From assembly GCA_003223295.1 (NCBI GenBank), contig QHYM01000118.1, positions 1-36,325 of the forward strand: 36,325 bases of DNA. Direction: 5' to 3'. This stretch comes from Acidobacteriota bacterium (lineage in GTDB: Bacteria; Acidobacteriota; Terriglobia; Acidiferrales; UBA7541). The position numbers were made by a program, and so were the translations under genes. Below, piece after piece: positions 4,068 to 26,009 of this stretch (within the stretch, counting starts at the first letter, position 1; each line of letters opens with the position of its first letter). The notes beneath the pieces were generated by a model. The model was not told the DNA's origin and searched no databases. It saw only the letters and a list, made by a program, of their open reading frames with translations.

Positions 4068-6879
4068 GAGCCGCTTTCCTGGCCGCGGGGAACTCGACGT
4101 GGAACGAAGTGCCCTTTCCGGGCGTCGAGCGCACATCAATCTTTCCTGCGTGCTCCTTGATGATTCCGTAGCTCACCGAGAGGCCCAGGCCGGTGCCCCG
4201 GCCATTGGACTTGGTGGTGAAGAAAGGATCAAAAATGCGGTGGATATCTTCGCGCGGAATTCCCGCGCCGGTATCCGCGATTTCGATTTCCACGCTGCCG
4301 TTATGGGCAGCCGTCCGGACTTCCAGCATTCCGCCGCCAGGCATGGCATCGCGCGCATTCAAAAACAAATTCAGGAAAACCTGTTGCAGCTTGTTTGCGG
4401 AGCCGTGCACGGGCGGCAGCGACTCGCCGAGCTCCTTCAGCACTTGAATCTGCGAGGCTTTCAGAGGATGCGCCACCAGCGAGAGAGTCTCTTCCACCAC
4501 GCGGTTTACGTCGACGCTTGCAGCTTCGGCCGCTCCCGTACGCGAAAAATTGAGCAGATTATTGACAATTTCGCTGGCGCGAAACGTCTGCTTGACGATT
4601 TTGTCGATGATCGACTGGCGCGGATCGCCCTCAGGCATCTGCTTGGCCAGCATCTGAATGTAATTCGAAATCACCGCGAGAGGGGTATTCACTTCATGCG
4701 CCACGCCGGCGGCGAGAAGCCCGAGGGAGGTCAGCTTCTCCGTCTGGGTCATCTGTTCTTCCATGCGCTCGCGCTGGGTCACGTCGTCGAAAAGCAATAA
4801 CCGCCCGATGCGCTCATTCGACTTGCTTACCAGCGGCGCAATGGAAACGTTCAAAGTCAAATGTTTTCCCTGATGATGCAGCCTCTGCTTATAGATGCCG
4901 GTGATGTGTTCCCGGTCACCGCGCGCAGCGATTTCCTGCGCCAATTCCTCCGGAAGCAAAGAGCTGAGCCTGCGGCCAACCGCGTCGCGGCGCAAAACTG
5001 CGAACAACTGCTCCATGCGCGTGTTCCAGGATTCGACGATGCCATCCAGATCCACGGCGAGTACGCCGACGTTCAGGGATTCCACGATGTTCTCGCTGAA
5101 ATCCTTGAGACGTGCAATTTCCAGGGCCTTTTGTTCGAGAGAGCTGTAAAGCTGTGCGTTGTCGAGCGCCACGGCGACGTAGCCGGCGATGGTCTCGACC
5201 AGCTCGACGTCGTCGCTCGACAGGAAATCGCCATCGACCGTTTTGCCGAGGCCGAGGACCGCGACGGTGTGCTCGCGGATGCGGCACGGAACAAAGTAAT
5301 TCAGATCTAATTGTTCGAGCGTCCAGCGCACCGAGTCGCTGACGTCTTTCACCGCACGGGGCGACTCAAAAAAGAGCGCCCCGCGCGCGAACTCGAGCCG
5401 GGCCGGATCGAGGAAACCAAGATCCATGGATTCCGAAAGCCGCACGCCCATGGAACGCGCAATACGCATCCTGTCGGGTTGCTCGGGGTCATGCACAAAA
5501 ATCGCCAGGCGGTCCACCAGCAAGGTCTGCGAGATGCGGTCCATTACCGAGCCCAGCATCGGATCTAGCCGCACTTCGTTGGTCAGCGTGCGGCCAAATT
5601 CGATCAAGGTGCGGCGGTAGTCCAGGCGGTCGCGGTAAAAGAAGCGGTCCAGGCGCCCTTGAATCCCTTCGCGCAAAGGCTGGAACAAGAAAGCCGCAAT
5701 GACGATGGCGATCATACCGCCCACGGGCCCCGTGGCTGGCGCGTGGAACAGGTAGGTAATCAACGCGACTAGCGAGAAATAAACGGTGGCCACTGCCGCA
5801 GTGGCAGCCGTGTACGCCAGACCGCGCTTGAAAATGATGTCCACGTCCATCAAGCGGTAACGGATGATGGCGTAGGCAAAACACAGGGGGATGAGCACCA
5901 GACTTACTACGGTCAGCTTCATCCATGCAGGGGGCGTGAGCCCGAGCACGCGGGGAAGGATGTAAAGCAGCGAAACGGGCAGGCTGCCGGCGAGCGTTCC
6001 GCCGGTAAGCCATTTCAACTGTTGGCGTAGAACGCCGGACGGCGCTTCGCGGTAATTCCGGTAGAAGACAAGGCCCGCCGCGACGAAACACGCCCCGAGG
6101 CAGCCGAACTCAAGCTTCTCCAGAAGGATATAAGCGCCTAGCCAGGGCACGAACCCCAGAGCATTCAGCGCCGTGCTCACGTGAATCAACAGCAGGGCGA
6201 GAGGGAGAGAATAAACCGCCAGAAGCTTCGCCGTGGTGCGCAGTCTCGATTCGGTCCGTCCGGGGAAAACCAAAGCGAAGTGCAGGAGCAAGGCTGGCAC
6301 CAGCAGACGCGCAACGATTTCCGACCAATAGACTTCCCAGTCGAAGGTGTCCAGCTTTCCACTGAAGTGGAAAGACCAAAGAATGAAAGAAGCCAGGCAG
6401 AAGATATAAAAATGCACAGCGCGGCGAGCGTTCCATCGCCGAATAAAAATGAATAACCCAATGAAGAGATACAACAAACCCACAACGCGAAGATAATTCT
6501 CAGTGGCGACGGGTTTTTCTGCGGGAGCCGTTACCAGCGGCGTTTCGAACTCTTCCCCATTCCGTGAGAGCTTATAGTGAACCTGGGTCCAAAGGCCGGC
6601 GCGATCGAGCCTCCGGGGGACCTCGGCTGCCCGTGAGATGGCAACCCCGTTGAACGCCAGCAGGATGTCGCCGGTGCGGATCGCAGTGTGGCTGGCGGGA
6701 GAATTAGCAGCAACGTTCCGCGCCTGGATGCCATGGTCGGTGTCGATCCAGGTGACCCCGTCGTATACTTGCTCATAGCGGGAGCGCTGGTCAAAATTCA
6801 ACAGGGCAAAAATTACCGCTGCCAGCGTAGCTAGCGCCAGCACCACCGCCCCAAGACTGACTCGCAGGTTCTGCTTCAT
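4060..6879 (-). CDS. Membrane sensor histidine kinase with PDZ, multi-TM, GAF and PAS domains
   Basis: The 939-residue protein starts with one transmembrane helix (about 8-28). A PDZ-like extracytoplasmic domain follows (DTDHGIQARNVAANSPASHT, RTGDILLAFNGVAI), then a block of roughly eight membrane helices to about residue 400. The cytoplasmic part has a GAF-like segment (about 430-580), a PAS segment (NVGVLAVDLDGIVESWN), the HisKA box with HEVNTP (His728), the N box NLFLNARDAM (near 841), DTGAGI (near 869) and GRGTGLGLS (near 893). All catalytic boxes are intact. It overlaps the response regulator by 8 bases, which makes that its partner. The PDZ domain suggests sensing of envelope protein termini or folding state. 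Upstream lies a 183-bp gap after the outer-membrane protein gene. Confidence 0.94.
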   Translation of the reverse strand: MKQNLRVSLGAVVLALATLAAVIFALLNFDQRSRYEQVYDGVTWIDTDHGIQARNVAANSPASHTAIRTGDILLAFNGVAISRAAEVPRRLDRAGLWTQVHYKLSRNGEEFETPLVTAPAEKPVATENYLRVVGLLYLFIGLFIFIRRWNARRAVHFYIFCLASFILWSFHFSGKLDTFDWEVYWSEIVARLLVPALLLHFALVFPGRTESRLRTTAKLLAVYSLPLALLLIHVSTALNALGFVPWLGAYILLEKLEFGCLGACFVAAGLVFYRNYREAPSGVLRQQLKWLTGGTLAGSLPVSLLYILPRVLGLTPPAWMKLTVVSLVLIPLCFAYAIIRYRLMDVDIIFKRGLAYTAATAAVATVYFSLVALITYLFHAPATGPVGGMIAIVIAAFLFQPLREGIQGRLDRFFYRDRLDYRRTLIEFGRTLTNEVRLDPMLGSVMDRISQTLLVDRLAIFVHDPEQPDRMRIARSMGVRLSESMDLGFLDPARLEFARGALFFESPRAVKDVSDSVRWTLEQLDLNYFVPCRIREHTVAVLGLGKTVDGDFLSSDDVELVETIAGYVAVALDNAQLYSSLEQKALEIARLKDFSENIVESLNVGVLAVDLDGIVESWNTRMEQLFAVLRRDAVGRRLSSLLPEELAQEIAARGDREHITGIYKQRLHHQGKHLTLNVSIAPLVSKSNERIGRLLLFDDVTQRERMEEQMTQTEKLTSLGLLAAGVAHEVNTPLAVISNYIQMLAKQMPEGDPRQSIIDKIVKQTFRASEIVNNLLNFSRTGAAEAASVDVNRVVEETLSLVAHPLKASQIQVLKELGESLPPVHGSANKLQQVFLNLFLNARDAMPGGGMLEVRTAAHNGSVEIEIADTGAGIPREDIHRIFDPFFTTKSNGRGTGLGLSVSYGIIKEHAGKIDVRSTPGKGTSFHVEFPAARKAAHV

Positions 6880-7062
6880 GGCCTTGAATAAACCGACAAA
6901 CGAATACTAAAATCCGGAAGCAAGCCAATGTCCACTGTTTGGAAGATTAGCATGCAGGAAACTCTAGTGTCTTCAACAGTTTACACCAGCAGAGGACTGA
7001 ACAACCTCAGTTCATCCAGTTTCTGGGAGGGTAGATACAGCTTTTGAGAGCTTTCAAACTAC

Positions 7063-8811
7063 CTAAAACTGCACGCTCAGCCCGCCCCGGAATGTCCGGA
7101 AAGCGGGAACGAGGACGAGGTGGCCATCCCTGCTACTGGTTGAAACATAGCCCTGTGCCAGTAAATTCTCGCAATCTGCGATAGCCTCCCATCTTCCTAA
7201 AGCCCATCTTGGCAGCGGCTGGCGGACCGTCAGGTGGACATAAGGATCCATCTGATAGAGGGACTCCCCAAAACCATCCAGGCGGGAGACCGTCGGCCCG
7301 CTGATCCACTTGTACCCCACGTGAACCTTGGTGCCGAGGCGGGGTACCTTGGCTGAAATGTCGGCGCCAAGTGAATGCCGCGGAACGGCTTGCAACACGT
7401 CACGCAGCAGGTTGTCCATATCATTGACCGGTGCAAGCGCACTTGCGATGGAATACAGCGCACTGAATTCGGTGTCGCCTTCTAGTTTCTTTCGAAACGC
7501 GACGCGCGCTCCCCAATTACTGGAAGCGCCACCGTCATAAACAAATCCCTTGGAAGAATAATCCTGGAAGTAATCACTGGCGGGGAGAGCATCACTCCCC
7601 AAGCCGTAGACGGCTACGTGCCGATTGTCATCGTGGAAACCAGCGAACTGAAGAACGCCGTGAGCGCCGATCTTTCGATTTGCGGCGAGTTCCTCATGCC
7701 AGCCGCTTTGCAATACCGGGCGGCCATCGCGCAAGAGCAGCGCGGGAAACGCATCCAGCTCGTTTAGAGCCGCCGTCAGCATTGCGCCCGGTTGCACCTC
7801 GGTGGCCTCGAGCGGGGCAGGTCCGGTGGGCATCGAAGCAAAAATCAGTTCGGTGTACCAATCTTGAGAAATCCGGTAATTAAGCTGCGCCCGCGGACGC
7901 AGCGAAGACGCCGCAGTGCCGAGTCCCACCAGAACATATTCGCCACCGTAACGCAGAAGCAGGCGATCGCCAAAGGATATGGCACCGCCTTGATCAAGCC
8001 GAACGCCATGAAACGTGGGACCGTCTGGCCCGATCTTGGCTTCACGGAGCGCCAGCGCTGTGTGCGGGCCCGCGCCCAGAGTTCCTGTGGGCATCCAAAC
8101 CGTAGCGATGCCGCCGCCAGGGGCCTCCTGGTCGTAACTCAGTTGCCCGGCGAAGAGCAGGCTGCCCGCGCCTCCAAGTTTCTGGTTGTAAGCAACGGCC
8201 GTGGCGGGTGCTGCAGCAATGTTGGAAGGGGAACCGGCCCGGCGCGCTCCATTCGTGAATTCCATTCGGACGCGCGGCAGTTCGGGCCTGCGGTTTTCCG
8301 CGCCTAGCGTCGAAACCGTGGCGCTGGACTCGTCCATCCATTCCAGAACCGGCCGTACCGAGGCGGCGGAACGCAGCACCCATTTCCAATCATCCGGGTT
8401 ACTAGCGGCATTAGAGGGCATGCGCCGCAATTGATCGAGCGAGGCGTACATGGATTCCAGTTCAACGCGAACCACGGTGGTCACATTAGGGCTGACGCGA
8501 ACGTGCTTCTCGAGGGTGGGAAGAAAGCCGGCAAGAGTAACGCGCAAGGTGTAGAGACCGGGGAGCAGCTTGCTTCCCTGGAAAACTCCTTGCGTGTTTG
8601 TGAGCAAACTGTGTGGCCCCGTTGCTCCCGTGAATTCCGGAGCAAGCTCCACGCTCGCGCCCATTTGCGGCGTGCCCGCAGTGTCACGCACCACTCCCGC
8701 AAGCTTGCCGAGGACCGGCTTGGCTTGCGCGGCCGCTGGTTTCGCAACAAACGTAGAAACGCCAGCGGTCAGGACCAGGGCCCCCAGGATTCGGAGTCGC
8801 CCTTGTTTCAC
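7063..8811 (-). CDS. Carboxypeptidase-regulatory-domain outer-membrane protein
   Basis: The 582-residue protein has a signal peptide (RLRILGALVLTAGVSTFVA then an alanine-rich cleavage region). A carboxypeptidase-regulatory-like Ig domain follows at about 36-115 (GKLAGVVRDTAGTPQMGASV, PGLYTLRVTLAGF). The rest is rich in alternating beta-strand patterns and ends in phenylalanine (GGLSVQF), the outer-membrane barrel signature. It resembles Oar-like receptors but is half their size and no TonB plug is evident. Translation begins at GTG 8811 with a strong GGAGG-type site 8 bases upstream that overlaps the end of the GWxTD gene. Only 6 bases separate the two genes, so they form an operon. It may be a non-TonB barrel assembled with its partner; function unknown. 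Confidence 0.8.
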   Translation of the reverse strand: MKQGRLRILGALVLTAGVSTFVAKPAAAQAKPVLGKLAGVVRDTAGTPQMGASVELAPEFTGATGPHSLLTNTQGVFQGSKLLPGLYTLRVTLAGFLPTLEKHVRVSPNVTTVVRVELESMYASLDQLRRMPSNAASNPDDWKWVLRSAASVRPVLEWMDESSATVSTLGAENRRPELPRVRMEFTNGARRAGSPSNIAAAPATAVAYNQKLGGAGSLLFAGQLSYDQEAPGGGIATVWMPTGTLGAGPHTALALREAKIGPDGPTFHGVRLDQGGAISFGDRLLLRYGGEYVLVGLGTAASSLRPRAQLNYRISQDWYTELIFASMPTGPAPLEATEVQPGAMLTAALNELDAFPALLLRDGRPVLQSGWHEELAANRKIGAHGVLQFAGFHDDNRHVAVYGLGSDALPASDYFQDYSSKGFVYDGGASSNWGARVAFRKKLEGDTEFSALYSIASALAPVNDMDNLLRDVLQAVPRHSLGADISAKVPRLGTKVHVGYKWISGPTVSRLDGFGESLYQMDPYVHLTVRQPLPRWALGRWEAIADCENLLAQGYVSTSSRDGHLVLVPAFRTFRGGLSVQF

Positions 8812-11968: not shown

Positions 11969-12460
11969 ATGCATGGAATTGCAAGACTCGGCAGCGCGGC
12001 GATGCTCTTCGGTTTGGCTTTGGCGCTCACCTTCATTCCACTGACTGCGACTTCCAGACCGTCTCAGGAAGGAAATGCGCCGAGCTCTGCAGCTGACGAC
12101 GCCGTGCCCGCCTACCATGCCCAGACTCCCAAAGGCGACCTCCCCGAAACAATGAAGCCGGAATCCTTTCCCGATCCGCTGGTGCAAAATGCCTACGCGG
12201 TTGCGGCGAGGATCAAAAAGACGCTTTACCAGCAGCCCTGCTACTGCCATTGCGACCGCAGCAAGGGACACGCGAGTTTGCTCGATTGTTTCGCCAGCGA
12301 GCATGGCTCCGGCTGCGGCACTTGCATCTATGAGGATTTCTATAGCTACGAACAGGTCCACAAAGGGAAGACAGCGGGGCAGATCCGCGAAGGAATCATC
12401 AAAGGCGCATGGAAATCGGTGGACGCCACGAAATACCGACAGCCGCTGCTTGCCAGGTGA
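11969..12460 (+). CDS. CYCXC (PCYCGC-type) secreted cysteine-rich protein
   Basis: The 163-residue protein begins with a hydrophobic signal segment (AAMLFGLALALTFIPLTA) and an alanine/proline linker. The C-terminal domain is the conserved PCYCHCDRSKGHASLLDCF block followed by SGCGTCIYE. Six cysteines and several histidines in 35 residues fit the CYCXC/PCYCGC family (PF13798). This family includes selenocysteine forms in other bacteria; no in-frame TGA is present here. The clustered cysteines suggest a periplasmic metal or redox site, but the role is not known. A GGGAGGAGA site lies directly before ATG 11969. It stands alone between EcsC (63 bp) and the next operon. Confidence 0.85.
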   Translation: MHGIARLGSAAMLFGLALALTFIPLTATSRPSQEGNAPSSAADDAVPAYHAQTPKGDLPETMKPESFPDPLVQNAYAVAARIKKTLYQQPCYCHCDRSKGHASLLDCFASEHGSGCGTCIYEDFYSYEQVHKGKTAGQIREGIIKGAWKSVDATKYRQPLLAR

Positions 12461-12587: not shown

Positions 12588-12992
12588 ATGCATTCTCGCC
12601 TCAAGTTGAGTGTGTGTCTGCTGGGGCTCGCCGCCCTGTTCGTGTCGGCGGGAATCCCGGCGCGGGCCCAGGACCGGCAACACGTTGTTTCTCTGAGCGA
12701 CCTGAGCAAAGACGCTGCTCGTCCGGCCCAGACCCGTCAAGCTAACGAAGAAGCCGTTCGAACATTGCTTTCTTCCGACCAGGGCCAAAGAGCGCTGAAA
12801 TCCGCCAAGCTCGATTACCAAAAGGTGGACAAGGCCGTTGGCCAATTGAGCGACGAAGATCTCGCCAAACTGGCGGAGCGTTCCCGGCAGGCGCAAGCGG
12901 ATTTTGCCGCCGGGCGCATTTCCGACCGCGATATGCTTTGGATCATCCTTATCGTGCTCGCTATAGTGGTATTGGCGCTAGCGCTCCACTAA
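12588..12992 (+). CDS. PA2779-like membrane-anchored protein
   Basis: From ATG 12588, with AGGAGGAAG immediately upstream, the protein is 134 residues. It has a signal peptide (KLSVCLLGLAALFVSAGIPA), a helical exported middle, a motif DKAVGQLSDEDLAKLAERSR typical of the 'RV..LSD.E...LA' helix of PA2779-family (DUF6627-like) proteins, and one strongly hydrophobic C-terminal helix (LWIILIVLAIVVLALAL). The overall plan of signal peptide, helix pair and C-terminal anchor matches PA2779. In Pseudomonas the neighbour PA2778 is a C39-like cysteine peptidase, and here too the next gene encodes one, which supports the assignment. An in-frame ATG 30 bases upstream lacks a good site and would spoil the signal peptide. 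Confidence 0.72.
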   Translation: MHSRLKLSVCLLGLAALFVSAGIPARAQDRQHVVSLSDLSKDAARPAQTRQANEEAVRTLLSSDQGQRALKSAKLDYQKVDKAVGQLSDEDLAKLAERSRQAQADFAAGRISDRDMLWIILIVLAIVVLALALH

Positions 12993-13014
12993 TCCCAAAC
13001 CATCGGAGTCGTTT

Positions 13015-13581
13015 ATTACCGGCTGGAAGCGGGCCACGTTCGCTTTGTTCCTGACGCTTTTCCTGGGGTGGACCGTCCAACCGGCGCCCCAGGAAAGTGC
13101 CGGAGTCTGGCTCGACGTGCCGTTCGTCAAACAAAACGAGGACGGCTGTGGGGCCGCGGCCATTTCCATGATTTTGCAGTATTGGAACGCTCATGGCGCG
13201 CGAATCGATTCGCAGCGCGCGGATGCGGTGGCTATTCAAAAGCAACTCTATTCGCGCAAGGCGCGAGGGATCTTCGCTTCGGACATGGAAGGCTATCTGA
13301 AAGCTTCCGGCTTCCAGGTTTATCTGCTGGGCGGAAGCTGGGCGGACCTGCAGGAACATTTGAAGCAAGGTCGTCCGCTGATTGTGAGCCTCCAGCCAGG
13401 TACTGCCAAAGCGCCACTGCACTACGTGGTGGTGACCGGGATCGCCTGGCAGCACGATGCGGTTTTCATCCACGACCCCGCTCGTGGCAAACTTCTTCGC
13501 GTAGAGCGGGCAGAATTCGAAAAGCAATGGCGGTCCAACCGCAATTGGATGTTGCTGGCAGTCCCCGAAAAGGTTGCTTGA
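13015..13581 (+). CDS. C39-like cysteine peptidase (PA2778-type), probable ATT start
   Basis: The exported papain-like C39-type peptidase domain has the catalytic cysteine in NEDGCGAAAISMILQYW, the histidine in LHYVVVTGI and the aspartate in FIHDPARG, all present; 'FVKQNEDGCG' includes the usual oxyanion-region Gln. No ATG or GTG lies between the in-frame stop at 12979 and the domain. ATT 13015 has GGAG 6 bases upstream and gives a signal peptide with a basic n-region (ITGWKRATFALFLTLF). TTG 13045 would remove the basic residues. I prefer ATT, with TTG as the alternative. The gene starts 22 bases after the PA2779-like stop and its TGA overlaps the next start. It could process peptides or anchor-linked substrates in the periplasm. 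Confidence 0.82.
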   Translation: MTGWKRATFALFLTLFLGWTVQPAPQESAGVWLDVPFVKQNEDGCGAAAISMILQYWNAHGARIDSQRADAVAIQKQLYSRKARGIFASDMEGYLKASGFQVYLLGGSWADLQEHLKQGRPLIVSLQPGTAKAPLHYVVVTGIAWQHDAVFIHDPARGKLLRVERAEFEKQWRSNRNWMLLAVPEKVA

Positions 13582-15263
13582 TCCGCTTTTTCCTTATCTT
13601 CTTTTTTCTTTCCACTGCAGGTTTCGCCCAAGATCTCGGTCCAGAAGCGTCTCGACTCGCGGCCGCGCAAAGCGCATTCGATGCCGGCCGTTGGGACGAA
13701 GCGGCGCGGCTTTCGCAGGGGCCTGCAGATCAGCCAGCGGAGCTCGATTTCCTGCGGGGACTGGCGCTCTCTCGCCTGGAGAAATGGGACCAGGCGAAAG
13801 TGGCCTTCGAAACGGGTGCGCGAAAGTCGCCGCGCGATTCGCGGTTTCCCGTGGAGCTGGCAGGCATCGCCTACAAACAGAAAAATCTTCGCCTTGCCAA
13901 GCAAGACTTGCGGACGGCACTGAACCTGAATCCCGACGACGCGTACGCGCAGGAATTTCTGGCCACCATCTATTTTCTCGAAGGAAATCTTGAAGCCGCG
14001 CTGAAGTTTTGGAATCTCGAAGACAAACCGAGATTGCGAAGCGTTGCTTTCATGCCCTCCGTGCGATTGTCCGAGCCGCTCCGCAACCGCGCTTTGGCTT
14101 TCAACGCCCCGCAAGTTCTGACCAGCAGCGCTCTGCTCACTACGGAATCGCGGCTGGACAACCTGGGCATTTTTTCCAGCCGGCGGATCGCACTCACTCC
14201 CGCGGATTCTGGAACCTATGATCTGACGGTGCACGTGGCAGAGAGAAATCTTTGGGGCGATTCGAAAGCCCAAGGGCTCGTCGCTCTCTTCAGCGGCCTG
14301 CCGTATGCGACCGTCTATCCGGGACTCTACAATCTGGGCCATCGCGCCGTTAACCTCACTTCACTTGCACGCTGGGACGCGGAGAAGCGCCGTTTCTTTG
14401 TGGAGGCCTCCCTGCCGGTCTACGGCGACCCCGGCTTGCGCTTGCGCATCTATGCGGACGCGCGGAATGAAAACTGGAATTTGTCGCAAACTTTCACCGG
14501 CACGGCCTCACTAACAGACTTGAACATTCGGCGGATCGCGGCCGGGGGCGAATTTAACCAGGTTGTAAACGGGCGGTGGAGTTGGAGCGCTGGCGCAGAA
14601 GCCGCCAATCGCAATTTTCGCAATCTGAGCAGTTCGCTCTCAGCGACGGAGCAGGTGTTTTTCACCGGAGGAAATTCCCTCGCAGGCTGGGTGAGTGCCG
14701 CGCGTACTCTTGTGCGCGCCCCGGAGCGCCGCTTCACGTTGGACTCTTCGGTCCAAGCAAGGGCAGGCCGCGAGTTTGCAAGCTCGCTCGGTCCATTCGC
14801 GACGTTTCAAGGACGCCTGAACGCTCACTGGTTCCCGCGAGATAAAGGAGACGATTACCAGATGCAGGCGCGGATTCGCGCGGGCGCAACCGCCGGCAAG
14901 GCCTCGCTCGACGAACTTTTCCAGTTGGGAGTCGAGCGCGATAACGATCTATGGATGCGCGGCCATCTAGGAACCACCGACGGCCGGAAAGGAACCGCCC
15001 CGCTCGGACGGCGATACTTCCTGGCGAGCTGGGAGATGGACAAGAACATTTATCAAAACGGCCTCTTCAGCGTCAAAATCGGGCCTTTTCTGGACAGCGG
15101 CGCAATCGCAGATTCTTCAGGGCTCTTTGGTTCACAGCGCTGGCTGTGGGATTCCGGCTTGCAATGCAAGGTGCGGATTCTCGGTGGCGTCACCGTCGTT
15201 TTCTCGTACGGACAGAATCTGCGGGGTGGGAAAGGCGTGTTCTACGGAACGGTTCTGCGTTGA
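13578..15263 (+). CDS. TPR-POTRA-Omp85-like outer-membrane protein
   Basis: The start is TTG 13578, which overlaps the previous TGA (TTGA) and follows AAAAGG. The 561-residue product has a signal peptide (IRFFLIFFFLSTAGFAQ) and about three TPR-type repeats at residues 20-140 (FDAGRWDEAARL, LSRLEKWDQAKVAFETGARK, LRTALNLNPDDAYAQEF). A POTRA-like unit follows at about 175-220 (LLTTESRLDNLGIFSSRRI then DLTVHVAERN). The rest is a beta-barrel. Barrel signs typical of the Omp85/TamA group are LWMRGHLGTTDG (the L6 'RGxxG' loop), KIGPFLDSGAIAD and a final LRGGKGVFYGTVLR. The much longer open frame that begins at 13068 is only a shadow over the peptidase gene. It probably assembles in the outer membrane and may translocate or receive the peptidase product. 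Confidence 0.8.
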   Translation: MIRFFLIFFFLSTAGFAQDLGPEASRLAAAQSAFDAGRWDEAARLSQGPADQPAELDFLRGLALSRLEKWDQAKVAFETGARKSPRDSRFPVELAGIAYKQKNLRLAKQDLRTALNLNPDDAYAQEFLATIYFLEGNLEAALKFWNLEDKPRLRSVAFMPSVRLSEPLRNRALAFNAPQVLTSSALLTTESRLDNLGIFSSRRIALTPADSGTYDLTVHVAERNLWGDSKAQGLVALFSGLPYATVYPGLYNLGHRAVNLTSLARWDAEKRRFFVEASLPVYGDPGLRLRIYADARNENWNLSQTFTGTASLTDLNIRRIAAGGEFNQVVNGRWSWSAGAEAANRNFRNLSSSLSATEQVFFTGGNSLAGWVSAARTLVRAPERRFTLDSSVQARAGREFASSLGPFATFQGRLNAHWFPRDKGDDYQMQARIRAGATAGKASLDELFQLGVERDNDLWMRGHLGTTDGRKGTAPLGRRYFLASWEMDKNIYQNGLFSVKIGPFLDSGAIADSSGLFGSQRWLWDSGLQCKVRILGGVTVVFSYGQNLRGGKGVFYGTVLR

Positions 15264-22213: not shown

Positions 22214-25200
22214 CTAAAAAGCGTAGCGCAACGAAAACTGAATCAGCCGTGGTGTACCCACAGTGCTGATGATTTTCCCGAACGGACTGTTCGAAAGCGG
22301 AATCGTTTCGGCGTCGTTCACGGTCGGATTGCCGAAATTGGCGTGGTTCCAGATGTTGAAGAAATCCGTGGTGAAGCGCAAAGACTTCTTCTCCGTCAGC
22401 TTGAAATTCTTGATCAGCGAAAAATCCCAGTTTTGCTGGCGCGGGCCGCGAAAGACGTTTCTGCCAAGATTGCCGAAGTCGGTGGTGCAGAAGTTTGCAT
22501 TGTTGACCGGATCGCAAAGCGTGGGATAGAGCAGCGGCGCAGTGGCGAAGGCATTCACATTCAGATAACCGTCAATCCGCTGGTGAATGTCACCAGTGGT
22601 CACGGCGTTCGAGAGCGCGCTTCCGCTCGCCAGGCTTCCGGAAAGAGTGCTCGGTGTAAAGCCCAGTCCCAAGAAACCGCTTCCTGCGCCGGAATCCGTG
22701 ACGGAAAACGGCGTGCCGGATTGGAAAGTGGTGATGCCGCTGAGGGCCCAATGGCTCAGCAGAGCGGCTTTCCACCCGGTTTCGTCCTTGTAAAACGGCA
22801 AGTCGTAGCGATAACTCACCACAAAGCGGTGGGTGCGGTCGAAGTCGGAAAGGCCACGGGAAGCGTCGAGCGTTGATTCGTCGTTGAAGGCTGTGTTGAA
22901 CGCGGTGTTCCCCGACGAGGTCGCGTCCGTGGACTTGGAAAAGGTATATGCGGCCTGGAAGTATCCCGCACTCCAACGGCGCGTCAGTGAAGTCTGTAAG
23001 GAGTGATAGTGCGAATAGGCGTCGTTGGCGAAAAGCTGGAAGCCCGCGTAGCCGTTGATTCCCTGGACTCGCGAACGCGCCACCGCGTTATTGAAAGTGT
23101 TGCTGGTTATCGAGCATGTTGCGTTCGGGCCTACGGCTGATCCGTTGCAGTTGGCTCCTGGGACGACCACGGGGTTCGCTGCAGAGGCCCGCTGCGACTG
23201 CAGGTTGTCGCGCGTCTCGCGCAGATGCACGGCGTGTGTTCCCACGTAGCCGGCCTCCAACACCCATTGCTTGCCGAGCGAACGCTGCACCGTCAAATTC
23301 CACTGCTGCGTGCTGGGCACCACGAAGTGCCGCGGCACTTGCAACCCGAAGATAAAGATCGAAGGGAGCGGCCCCGGGCAGGCAGCTCCGGAAGCAGATC
23401 CATAGTTCGCAGCCTGAGTCGTGTCGCCTCCCGGAAAGCCTTGGAAGACAGAAAGACACGGCACAAACGCGGGATCGAGCGTCCCGGCCTTCGGCAGTGC
23501 GTTCAGATTGGGGCTGGGGCAGTTCGCCGGTGGCGTCGGGGAATAAATGCTCCCCATGCAACCTGCGGCGCTGGCCCCGAAGGTCACCGGCAAGAACGGC
23601 GTCTGGAACGATAATTGGTCTACCGTGCCCACATCTTCGCGGACGTAATAAATCCCAAAGCCCGCTCGAATCGTAGTGCTGTGATGTCCGAAAACGTCGT
23701 AAGCCAGCCCGATGCGCGGCCCAAGATTTGTCGAATAGTTGTTATTGTACGTAGTTCTGCTGGCGTTTCCAGTGAGACCCGCGAGGTTCAGGCTCTTGAC
23801 GCAGGAAGGATACCCAAAGGGAAACTGCCCCTGGCTGGCAAGCGCTGGATCGAGATTACCAATATGGCAAAGCTGGTCGTAGAAAGCTCCAAAGATCTCG
23901 GTCCGGATCCCGAGGTTAAGCGTCAAATCGCTCCGCATCTTCCAATCGTCCTGGGCAAAGACCCCATAATTGTTGGTGCGATATTCATGGTTATACACAC
24001 CACCAGCCCCAAAACTGAATAAGGGGGTGCCCAGCAAAAAGTTCTGGAAATCGCTGTGGCCGTCCGGCGTGTTGGTGAAGAAAAGTTCGCCGTTGAACAC
24101 CTGCGGGAAGAGCTTATCCAGATTGACGCGCGTCACTTCCCCGCCGAAGCGCAACACATGCTTGTCCTTCACCCAGCTCACCGTATCGACCACGTTGTAG
24201 TTGTTCTGCGTTTGGTGCTGGTCGGCAAAGGGCGCCGGGCCAATCTCAAAACCAGAGCTGGAAAAAACAAATTTATAAATGGAATCCGTGACGCCGTTGG
24301 TGGGGCGATCGATGCCCAAGTCCGTGACAGTTACGGGGGCAATGTTGTTCAACTGGTCGTTGATGTGCACGAATCCGAACCGTAATTCATTGACCAGTGT
24401 CGGCGAAAACAGGTGCGTCTCGGTGACGTTGAAAAACCGCGCGTGAACCGGAGTATCAAAAGGAAAATTGAGAGACGCCGTGCTGATGCTGCTGGACAGC
24501 GTGCTTCCTAGTGATTCTTGCAAGTCGCCGCCCCCGAAGGGCAGGAAGCTTTTCGAATCGGAGAAAAAGAATCGTGCCGAAAGCTTGTCCGCGCCACTGC
24601 GGAATTCGCGGTCCCAGTTCGAAGTGAACTGGTCGTCAGTAAATCTTCCGGGACGGCTAATGGCAAATGCTCCAGTTGCCGGATCGCCACTTGGTATCAG
24701 GAAGTCGTTGGATGTTCCACCAAACTGATTGCTCTTGAACTGCAGGAGCTTGACCGCGACGGGATCGAGATTCGTAATGCCAGTGGGAAGGCCGGTTGGG
24801 AAAAAAGTTGCGATCAAGGATGCTTCCGTACGGTTTTGGGCATCCGGCAGTGTGGGAATGGTTGTGCTGATAAACGTTCCCGCCGAAAGGCCGCTACGTT
24901 GGCGCGTTCCTTGGTAATTCAGGAAAAAGTACCCCCACTTTTCGTTTCCCACAGGTCCGCCTAGGCTCCCGCCGAAGATGTTCTGCTTAATAACCGGGCG
25001 CGGCTGTCCTTGCCTGTTCAGGAAGTATTCGTTGGCATTCAACACGTCGTTACGGAAAAACTCGTAAGCGTCCCCGTGCAGCTCCTTTGTGCCGGATTTC
25101 AGAATCGCGTTGACGTTGCCGCCCCCATTGCGCCCCTGGCTGGCGTCATACAGCGACGTCTGCACTTTGAACTCCTGAAGAACGTCGGGATTCGGCAAGG

Positions 25201-25843
25201 GAACATAGGTCGCCTGCGCCACGTTGTAATCCGTCGCGCTGATGCCTTCGATCAGGAAATTGTTGTTGTCCTCGCGCTGCCCATTCACGAACAGTTTCAC
25301 GCTGCCTCGGCCGAGTTGCGCGGCTGCGTTCAGTTCGCTTTGCGCGCCCGCAGAAAGCGTTAGCAACTGCTGGTAATTCTGCGTGGCCAGCGGCAGTCCG
25401 CGGACCGTTTCTGTGCCGAGGGATTGCCCGGTGGTCGCGTTGGTGGTCTCAACCGTGGTGATCTGCGCGGAAATCTGCACCTTCTCGCTGACTGCCCCCG
25501 GCTTCAGTGTAATCGTGACTTTCGTGGTTTCCGTTACGCGCACTTCAATGCCGTCGGCCTTGGATTGCGAGAATCCCGATTTGTTGACCATCACAGAGTA
25601 AATACCTGGAGGCAGCAGCGGCACAACGAAAGAGCCGTCAGACGCCGTTGGCAGTTTTCGCACCACGGCTTCCGTGCGCGTATTACTGATCTGTACGTCC
25701 GCGCCGGCTACTGACCCGCCCGTGGTGTCCACCACGCTCCCGCTGATGGCGCCGGTAGCGCCGCCTTGACCGTAGGCGCACTGGCTCCCCAACAGCCCCA
25801 CTACCAAGACTGCGGTTGATAACACACGATAGACCATTCGCAT
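22214..25843 (-). CDS. Oar-like TonB-dependent receptor with carboxypeptidase-regulatory domain
   Basis: The protein is 1209 residues from ATG 25843, preceded by a G-rich GGGGGG site. It has a signal peptide (VLSTAVLVVGLLGSQCAYGQ), a carboxypeptidase-regulatory-like domain at about 30-115 (GAISGSVVDTTGGSVAGADV, PPGIYSVMVNKSGFSQ) and a TonB plug at about 125-250 (ETVRGLPLATQNYQQLLTLS, VFVNG-like VKLFVNGQREDNN). The large barrel ends in FSLRYAF. This architecture is the abundant Acidobacteriota Oar/OmpA-like receptor group, thought to import large substrates or act in cell-surface contact. A further upstream ATG in frame would add residues with no signal-peptide role. It diverges from the FecR/DUF6600 gene across a 366-bp region with two strong hairpins. 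Ligand unknown. Confidence 0.94.
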   Translation of the reverse strand: MRMVYRVLSTAVLVVGLLGSQCAYGQGGATGAISGSVVDTTGGSVAGADVQISNTRTEAVVRKLPTASDGSFVVPLLPPGIYSVMVNKSGFSQSKADGIEVRVTETTKVTITLKPGAVSEKVQISAQITTVETTNATTGQSLGTETVRGLPLATQNYQQLLTLSAGAQSELNAAAQLGRGSVKLFVNGQREDNNNFLIEGISATDYNVAQATYVPLPNPDVLQEFKVQTSLYDASQGRNGGGNVNAILKSGTKELHGDAYEFFRNDVLNANEYFLNRQGQPRPVIKQNIFGGSLGGPVGNEKWGYFFLNYQGTRQRSGLSAGTFISTTIPTLPDAQNRTEASLIATFFPTGLPTGITNLDPVAVKLLQFKSNQFGGTSNDFLIPSGDPATGAFAISRPGRFTDDQFTSNWDREFRSGADKLSARFFFSDSKSFLPFGGGDLQESLGSTLSSSISTASLNFPFDTPVHARFFNVTETHLFSPTLVNELRFGFVHINDQLNNIAPVTVTDLGIDRPTNGVTDSIYKFVFSSSGFEIGPAPFADQHQTQNNYNVVDTVSWVKDKHVLRFGGEVTRVNLDKLFPQVFNGELFFTNTPDGHSDFQNFLLGTPLFSFGAGGVYNHEYRTNNYGVFAQDDWKMRSDLTLNLGIRTEIFGAFYDQLCHIGNLDPALASQGQFPFGYPSCVKSLNLAGLTGNASRTTYNNNYSTNLGPRIGLAYDVFGHHSTTIRAGFGIYYVREDVGTVDQLSFQTPFLPVTFGASAAGCMGSIYSPTPPANCPSPNLNALPKAGTLDPAFVPCLSVFQGFPGGDTTQAANYGSASGAACPGPLPSIFIFGLQVPRHFVVPSTQQWNLTVQRSLGKQWVLEAGYVGTHAVHLRETRDNLQSQRASAANPVVVPGANCNGSAVGPNATCSITSNTFNNAVARSRVQGINGYAGFQLFANDAYSHYHSLQTSLTRRWSAGYFQAAYTFSKSTDATSSGNTAFNTAFNDESTLDASRGLSDFDRTHRFVVSYRYDLPFYKDETGWKAALLSHWALSGITTFQSGTPFSVTDSGAGSGFLGLGFTPSTLSGSLASGSALSNAVTTGDIHQRIDGYLNVNAFATAPLLYPTLCDPVNNANFCTTDFGNLGRNVFRGPRQQNWDFSLIKNFKLTEKKSLRFTTDFFNIWNHANFGNPTVNDAETIPLSNSPFGKIISTVGTPRLIQFSLRYAF

Positions 25844-25905
25844 AACACCCCCCAGCGATGGGACTCCGCGACTCCTCGTTTGTGGGCAACTCCTAATGGG
25901 TTTTA

Positions 25906-25934
25906 AGACCTCCCTCCGGGAAGGAGGGCGGTCT
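25906..25934. promoter_or_regulatory. Hairpin in the TonB receptor leader
   Basis: AGACC at 25906-25910 and GGTCT at 25930-25934 flank CCCTCC (25912-25917) and GGAGGG (25923-25928) around a GGGAA loop, with one T/C mismatch. The stem has 11 pairs and is very GC-rich. It lies about 63 bases upstream of the receptor start, inside its probable leader, and could attenuate or stabilise the message. No T-tract follows on the receptor side. Confidence 0.5.
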
Positions 25935-26009
25935 CCGAGACACATCGCGGATGACCTGGATGTCCCTCGTTGTGAAACTAACGTTTCGCCTTTGGAGTGT
26001 CAAGAAACG

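Follow-up and report, generated by a model that had tools for sequence, protein, structure and literature searches.

The window, by which we mean the whole stretch of 36,325 nucleotides analysed here, carries a compact operon of three genes. They code for a PA2779-family membrane protein, a periplasmic C39-type cysteine peptidase and an exported TPR-POTRA-Omp85 barrel protein (Table 1), and related genomes keep them together at 32/32 genuine loci. An earlier note, made from the letters of the DNA, had proposed such an operon and had read it as a device for processing and for outer-membrane assembly or translocation. The operon is confirmed as a whole, its interpretation in part: neither of the two outcomes that the note named as refuting came about, since gene 3 is predicted to have a POTRA and an Omp85 barrel and related genomes keep the set. 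A device for processing at the outer membrane is the best reading of the three-gene set.

The explanation which we favour, with a rough probability of 0.5, is that the operon specifies a peptidase station on the side of the outer membrane that faces the periplasm. The gene 3 product would be an Omp85-type barrel in the outer membrane with its POTRA and TPR extending into the periplasm, and these would hold the gene 2 peptidase, to which they are fused in other Acidobacteriota. The gene 1 product would be exported by Sec and then retained in the inner membrane by its C-terminal helix. Cleavage by the C39 peptidase after a conserved Ala/Gly-Gly just before this helix would release the helical domain from the inner membrane, and the freed domain would be handed to or through the gene 3 barrel. 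The parts of this scheme differ in strength: docking of gene 2 on gene 3 in the split form is quite likely, the chances that gene 1 is the substrate are about even, and translocation or assembly of the product by the barrel is a more tentative suggestion. The most far-reaching version is a pathway of its own at the outer membrane. A C39 peptidase linked to an Omp85 protein via TPR and POTRA, by docking or by fusion, would release an inner-membrane-anchored protein by a cut after Ala/Gly-Gly at its C-terminal helix, and the barrel would display or secrete the product; taken as a whole this version is unlikely.

The domain make-up, the triad, the conserved three-gene set, the fusions, the co-occurrence and the near-invariant glycine presented below are computed results. 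In favour of the peptidase station we count the Omp85 fold of gene 3, the C39 fold of gene 2 with ComA and LahT as its nearest relatives, the three genes kept together at 32/32 loci, the fusions, the co-occurrence and the precedent of FapD.

No function of PA2778/PA2779 pairs is described in the literature searched. The fused and split forms in Acidobacteriota link the C39 peptidase with a protein of the Omp85 family. That peptidase and barrel exist as one protein makes a poorly studied gene family testable. The near-invariant glycine amounts to a prediction of the peptidase cut site at a single residue. If the explanation is true, substrate maturation joins the processes known to be coupled to Omp85 proteins.

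The three genes and their products

The genes lie on one strand with intergenic gaps of 22 and -4 bases, provided that gene 2 starts at the ATT at 13015. The only ordinary in-frame start codon of the window near this position is the TTG at 13045, and a common start codon was looked for among the relatives, of which none is shared at that place. It should be noted that the region 13003-13050 has no ordinary start codon where the gene 2 signal peptide should begin; in near relatives this place retains a GGAG together with an ACG (ACC in the window), and a few relatives have an ATG nearby.

The closest neighbours of the operon are a gene for a small protein of the PCYCGC family (PF13798) and one for an M13 peptidase. 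The former, at 11969-12460 directly upstream, is common to near relatives (e.g., L032, L036, L042, and L043). A further conserved partner in the flanks was considered and rejected: PCYCGC, GWxTD proteins and others are shared mainly within the nearest group and, among the neighbours listed, are absent from distant loci. No amyloid-repeat subunit was noted near the operon. At 22214-25945 the window codes for a large outer-membrane protein with a carboxypeptidase-regulatory-like domain and an OMP_b-brl_4 barrel.

Table 1. Features of the operon, with positions in the window.
Feature	Position	Strand	Basis
Gene 1, PA2779-family protein with signal peptide, short helical ectodomain and a transmembrane helix at the C-terminus	12588..12992	+	NF033919 41.1 bits vs cut-off 40; AGGAGG 4 bases 5' of ATG
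Gene 1, candidate cleavage motif FAAG (residues 106-109), just N-terminal to the transmembrane helix	12903..12914	+	Gly109 column 63/64
Gene 1, C-terminal transmembrane helix	12933..12986	+	sequence MLWIILIVLAIVVLALAL; homologues' tails strongly hydrophobic
Gene 2, periplasmic C39-type cysteine peptidase without a TPR of its own	13015..13581	+	PF13529 and PF03412 above cut-off; model; start uncertain (ATT 13015 / TTG 13045)
Gene 2, catalytic Cys45 / His136 / Asp154	13147..13149 / 13420-13422 / 13474-13476	+	conservation in 71 homologues
Gene 3, exported TPR-POTRA-Omp85 barrel protein	13578..15263	+	TTG start, 4-base overlap with gene 2 stop; Pfam, model, structural matches
Gene 3, TPR region, residues 22-148	13641..14021	+	Pfam TPR_16 and TPR_2 above cut-off; model helices
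Gene 3, single POTRA, residues 152-222	14031..14243	+	order of elements in the model; alignments to BamA, TamA, FhaC start at residues 148-152
Gene 3, Omp85-type beta barrel, residues 249-561	14322..15260	+	~16 strands; Z 21-25 to BamA, TamA, FhaC
Gene 3, RGH L6-like loop	14958-14966	+	sequence

The gene 1 protein passes the cut-off of the PA2779 family (NCBIfam NF033919) narrowly; against the related Pfam family DUF6627 it scores 15.5 bits, which is under the cut-off of 27.

Gene 2 is a C39 peptidase by family profile, with 67.4 and 49 bits in the Pfam C39 families (PF13529 and PF03412; cut-offs 24 and 22), and by its Cys-His-Asp triad; proteolytic activity is predicted. The triad had been described as intact, and it is also conserved: Cys45, His136 and Asp154 are kept in 71/71, 71/71 and 65/71 homologues. 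The solved structures nearest to its model (pLDDT 89.3) are the double-glycine peptidases ComA and LahT (Z 19.0), the other matches being PCAT1 (mostly Z 16-18) and general papain-like proteases (about 13-15). With 57.4 bits against the PA2778 family NF033920, which has a cut-off of 150, and with no TPR, gene 2 falls outside that family. FilB of the Acinetobacter fil locus was considered as its identity and discarded, the match being weak (26.5 bits) and the literature search on the fil genes giving no lead on FilB.

For gene 3 the proposed combination of TPR, POTRA-like segment and barrel is borne out by structure prediction. The AlphaFold2 model, made from a 29-row alignment (mean pLDDT 87.7, pTM 0.83), has TPR helices followed by a beta-alpha-alpha-beta-beta POTRA directly ahead of a C-terminal barrel of about 16 strands, as counted from DSSP with the first strand short. 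The best Foldseek matches are BamA, TamA and CdiB, and structural re-alignment gave Z 21 to 24.6 against BamA, TamA and FhaC, the top value with BamA barrels, with many alignments spanning residues 148-561. By Pfam sequence search the POTRA is found at E 0.021, below the cut-off. The L6-like loop is present and, compared with the conserved (V/I)RG(F/Y), reads MRGH in gene 3; most relatives have LRGH there, some of them RAH or HAH instead, and most fused proteins LRAH. The polysaccharide exporters with TPR plus porin (BcsC, PgaA) and Slam were rejected as identities, given the POTRA and Omp85 barrel matches of gene 3; their family matches in the TPR part are far below cut-off.

Conservation, fused and split forms

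In a scan of species genomes we found 32 genuine relatives of gene 3, each of them in a record titled Acidobacteriota. Each of them has a homologue of gene 2 directly upstream and a homologue of gene 1 before that, which rules out a chance association. The distribution is patchy (27/396 genomes). More distant homologues of gene 3 are found without genes 1 and 2 in three genomes: in G052, over the 16 kb covered, and in G044 and G059, where the DNA begins at a contig end. No homologue of gene 1 was found in these genomes; such barrels count against the peptidase station. No plasmid record has gene 3 or a fused protein.

The PA2779-family matches in 297 Acidobacteriota genomes were surveyed together with their neighbourhoods, and three arrangements were found around the PA2779-like gene. 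It is accompanied by a C39-TPR protein (L098-L101, L103, and L104), by a single C39-TPR-POTRA-barrel polypeptide (L106, L107, L113, L116, L117, L118, and L120; also L169, L170, and L171), or by the split form seen in the window (L105, L111, L112, L114, L115, L119, and L123). Profile comparison matches gene 3 to the fused proteins across 469 columns (E 4e-24) and gene 2 to their N-terminal part (E 6e-35). Fusions such as these usually indicate that the separate proteins act together. Because a single polypeptide with all these domains adjoins the PA2779-like gene elsewhere in Acidobacteriota, the peptidase and the Omp85 barrel very probably form one outer-membrane unit.

In the C39 tree, which is unrooted and has long branches, 42 split rows fall into a single branch, with two further split groups outside it. 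The automatic labels of L099, L101 and L104 in this tree are wrong; all three are C39-TPR proteins. The separate branches imply, for an unrooted tree, that fusion or fission happened more than once. The earlier note proposed that the TPR had moved to a separate protein. The TPR is indeed on the Omp85-like gene 3, but a move in this direction is conjectural, as C39-TPR, fused and split forms coexist and the tree has no root.

Gene 1 as the candidate substrate

A PA2778-type C39 peptidase, called at >=116 bits with a mixed profile and with a clear gap below, is found in 30/32 genomes with a PA2779-family match vs 7/265 without (Fisher p ~4e-32, relatedness not corrected). In several genomes, among them G070, G097 and G122, they lie on separate contigs, so that the link is more than neighbourhood. 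The proposed relation to PA2779/PA2778 pairs is real. Six genomes have a C39-TPR protein without a detectable PA2779-like gene, which counts against the peptidase station. In genomes of this kind, the C39-TPR proteins L160, L161, L162 and L164 have about 350-376 residues, and in their C39 domain a Trp replaces the usual Gln before the catalytic Cys.

Adjacency and co-occurrence would be equally expected if gene 1 were a membrane-bound partner or regulator of a peptidase acting on other, unlinked exported proteins which pass the barrel. The conservation within gene 1 bears on this choice. In 64 PA2779-like proteins from Acidobacteriota the most conserved column of the alignment is Gly109 (63/64), which directly precedes the C-terminal helix. 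In the 63 proteins with the glycine the residue before it is Ala in 56 and Gly in 7, and between 23 and 35 residues (median 25) come after it. The sole protein without it is L127 of genome G065, in which neither C39 profile finds a homologue. Genome G082 has four PA2779-like genes and one C39 of the PA2778 type; the unlinked paralogues that were read, L182 and L183 of this genome and L184 of the sister genome G108, keep FxAG, although the part that connects the glycine with the transmembrane helix has diverged. A betaproteobacterial PA2779 protein, that of Azoarcus, has AGG at the same place. We count the glycine with its preceding Ala/Gly and its one exception, the extra copies with FxAG beside one C39, and the Azoarcus AGG in favour of gene 1 as the substrate. 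A partner or regulator is somewhat unlikely, since its best conserved residue would lie before the helix, outside the ectodomain core, up to four copies would serve one peptidase, and the only glycine-less copy would be in a genome without a detected peptidase.

Three further observations concern these genes. At the L127 locus (6195-8191) the glycine-less gene adjoins a short-TPR barrel homologue, and the locus is possibly a decayed or repurposed module. L183 and L184 have a CGC motif in the diverged stretch. Tandem duplicates of the PA2779-like gene precede the peptidase gene in several lineages (L042, L050/L112, L115 and L101).

The canonical C39 leader has the consensus L(-12), E(-8), L(-7), GG (PMC6959990). 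The PA2779-like proteins agree with it at G(-1) and A/G(-2), while a large hydrophobic residue is present at -7 in none and at -12 in 11%. This departure favours the partner or regulator and counts against the peptidase station, as does a possible structural role of a glycine at the membrane boundary. FapD and other periplasmic C39 peptidases may recognise different sequences (PMC5557850). For gene 1 the role of an anchor was first suggested, but that of a substrate agrees with the evidence at least as well.

The barrel and known systems

The barrel could also be a mere anchor: it would transport nothing and just tether the peptidase to the outer membrane, a task that in the C39-TPR forms may fall to a lipid anchor. 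Such a tether is compatible with gene 1 as the substrate. L100 and L103 are C39-TPR proteins with a lipobox-like Cys after the signal (LLSSC, LTSC) and no barrel, yet they are paired with PA2779. On the other hand, many lineages retain a POTRA together with the complete Omp85 barrel, which is beyond the needs of anchoring, and we place the mere anchor on the improbable side. A quality-control device, with peptidase and TPR clearing outer-membrane proteins that have assembled wrongly at an Omp85 site, would account for TPR, peptidase and Omp85 protein occurring together and has a precedent at BAM in BepA, a periplasmic peptidase which either promotes the assembly of LptD or degrades it (PMC8423444), but it is improbable, as the fold of gene 2 is nearest to sequence-specific double-glycine peptidases, the tight PA2779 link is left unexplained and the distribution is patchy.

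The operon is neither a canonical PA2778 system nor a canonical system for Fap or two-partner secretion. It shares with the PA2778/PA2779 pair (NF033920/NF033919) a PA2779-like membrane protein, above the family cut-off, beside a C39 peptidase, and the GG before the C-terminal helix is also seen in Azoarcus; PA2778, in contrast, has the TPR on the peptidase and no barrel, where the operon of the window has it on the Omp85-type protein. Two-partner secretion (TpsB) needs two POTRA and a neighbouring gene for a secreted TpsA, and was rejected because gene 3 has one POTRA and is flanked most closely by the PCYCGC protein and the M13 peptidase. With the Omp85 superfamily at large (BamA, TamA, FhaC/CdiB) gene 3 has in common a POTRA followed by a barrel of about 16 strands; it differs in the single POTRA after TPR repeats, the C39 operon or fusion and the degenerate L6 (RGH; RAH in some relatives). 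The C39 domains of peptidase-containing ABC transporters (ComA, LahT, PCAT1) are nearest in fold to gene 2 (Z 16-19), which unlike them is exported to the periplasm, lacks an ABC transporter part and has a candidate substrate motif off the canonical leader. BepA, which works at the BAM complex, is likewise a peptidase with TPR next to an Omp85 protein, but it is a zinc metallopeptidase and is not fused to the barrel. The Fap system combines a periplasmic C39 peptidase, FapD, whose active-site Cys is required for outer-membrane export via FapF, with a dedicated outer-membrane barrel (PMC5557850). By its description, FapF forms a trimer in which each barrel has 12 strands, carries a coiled coil and is no Omp85 protein, whereas the gene 3 barrel is Omp85-type by model and structural matches; Fap secretion was rejected on this ground.
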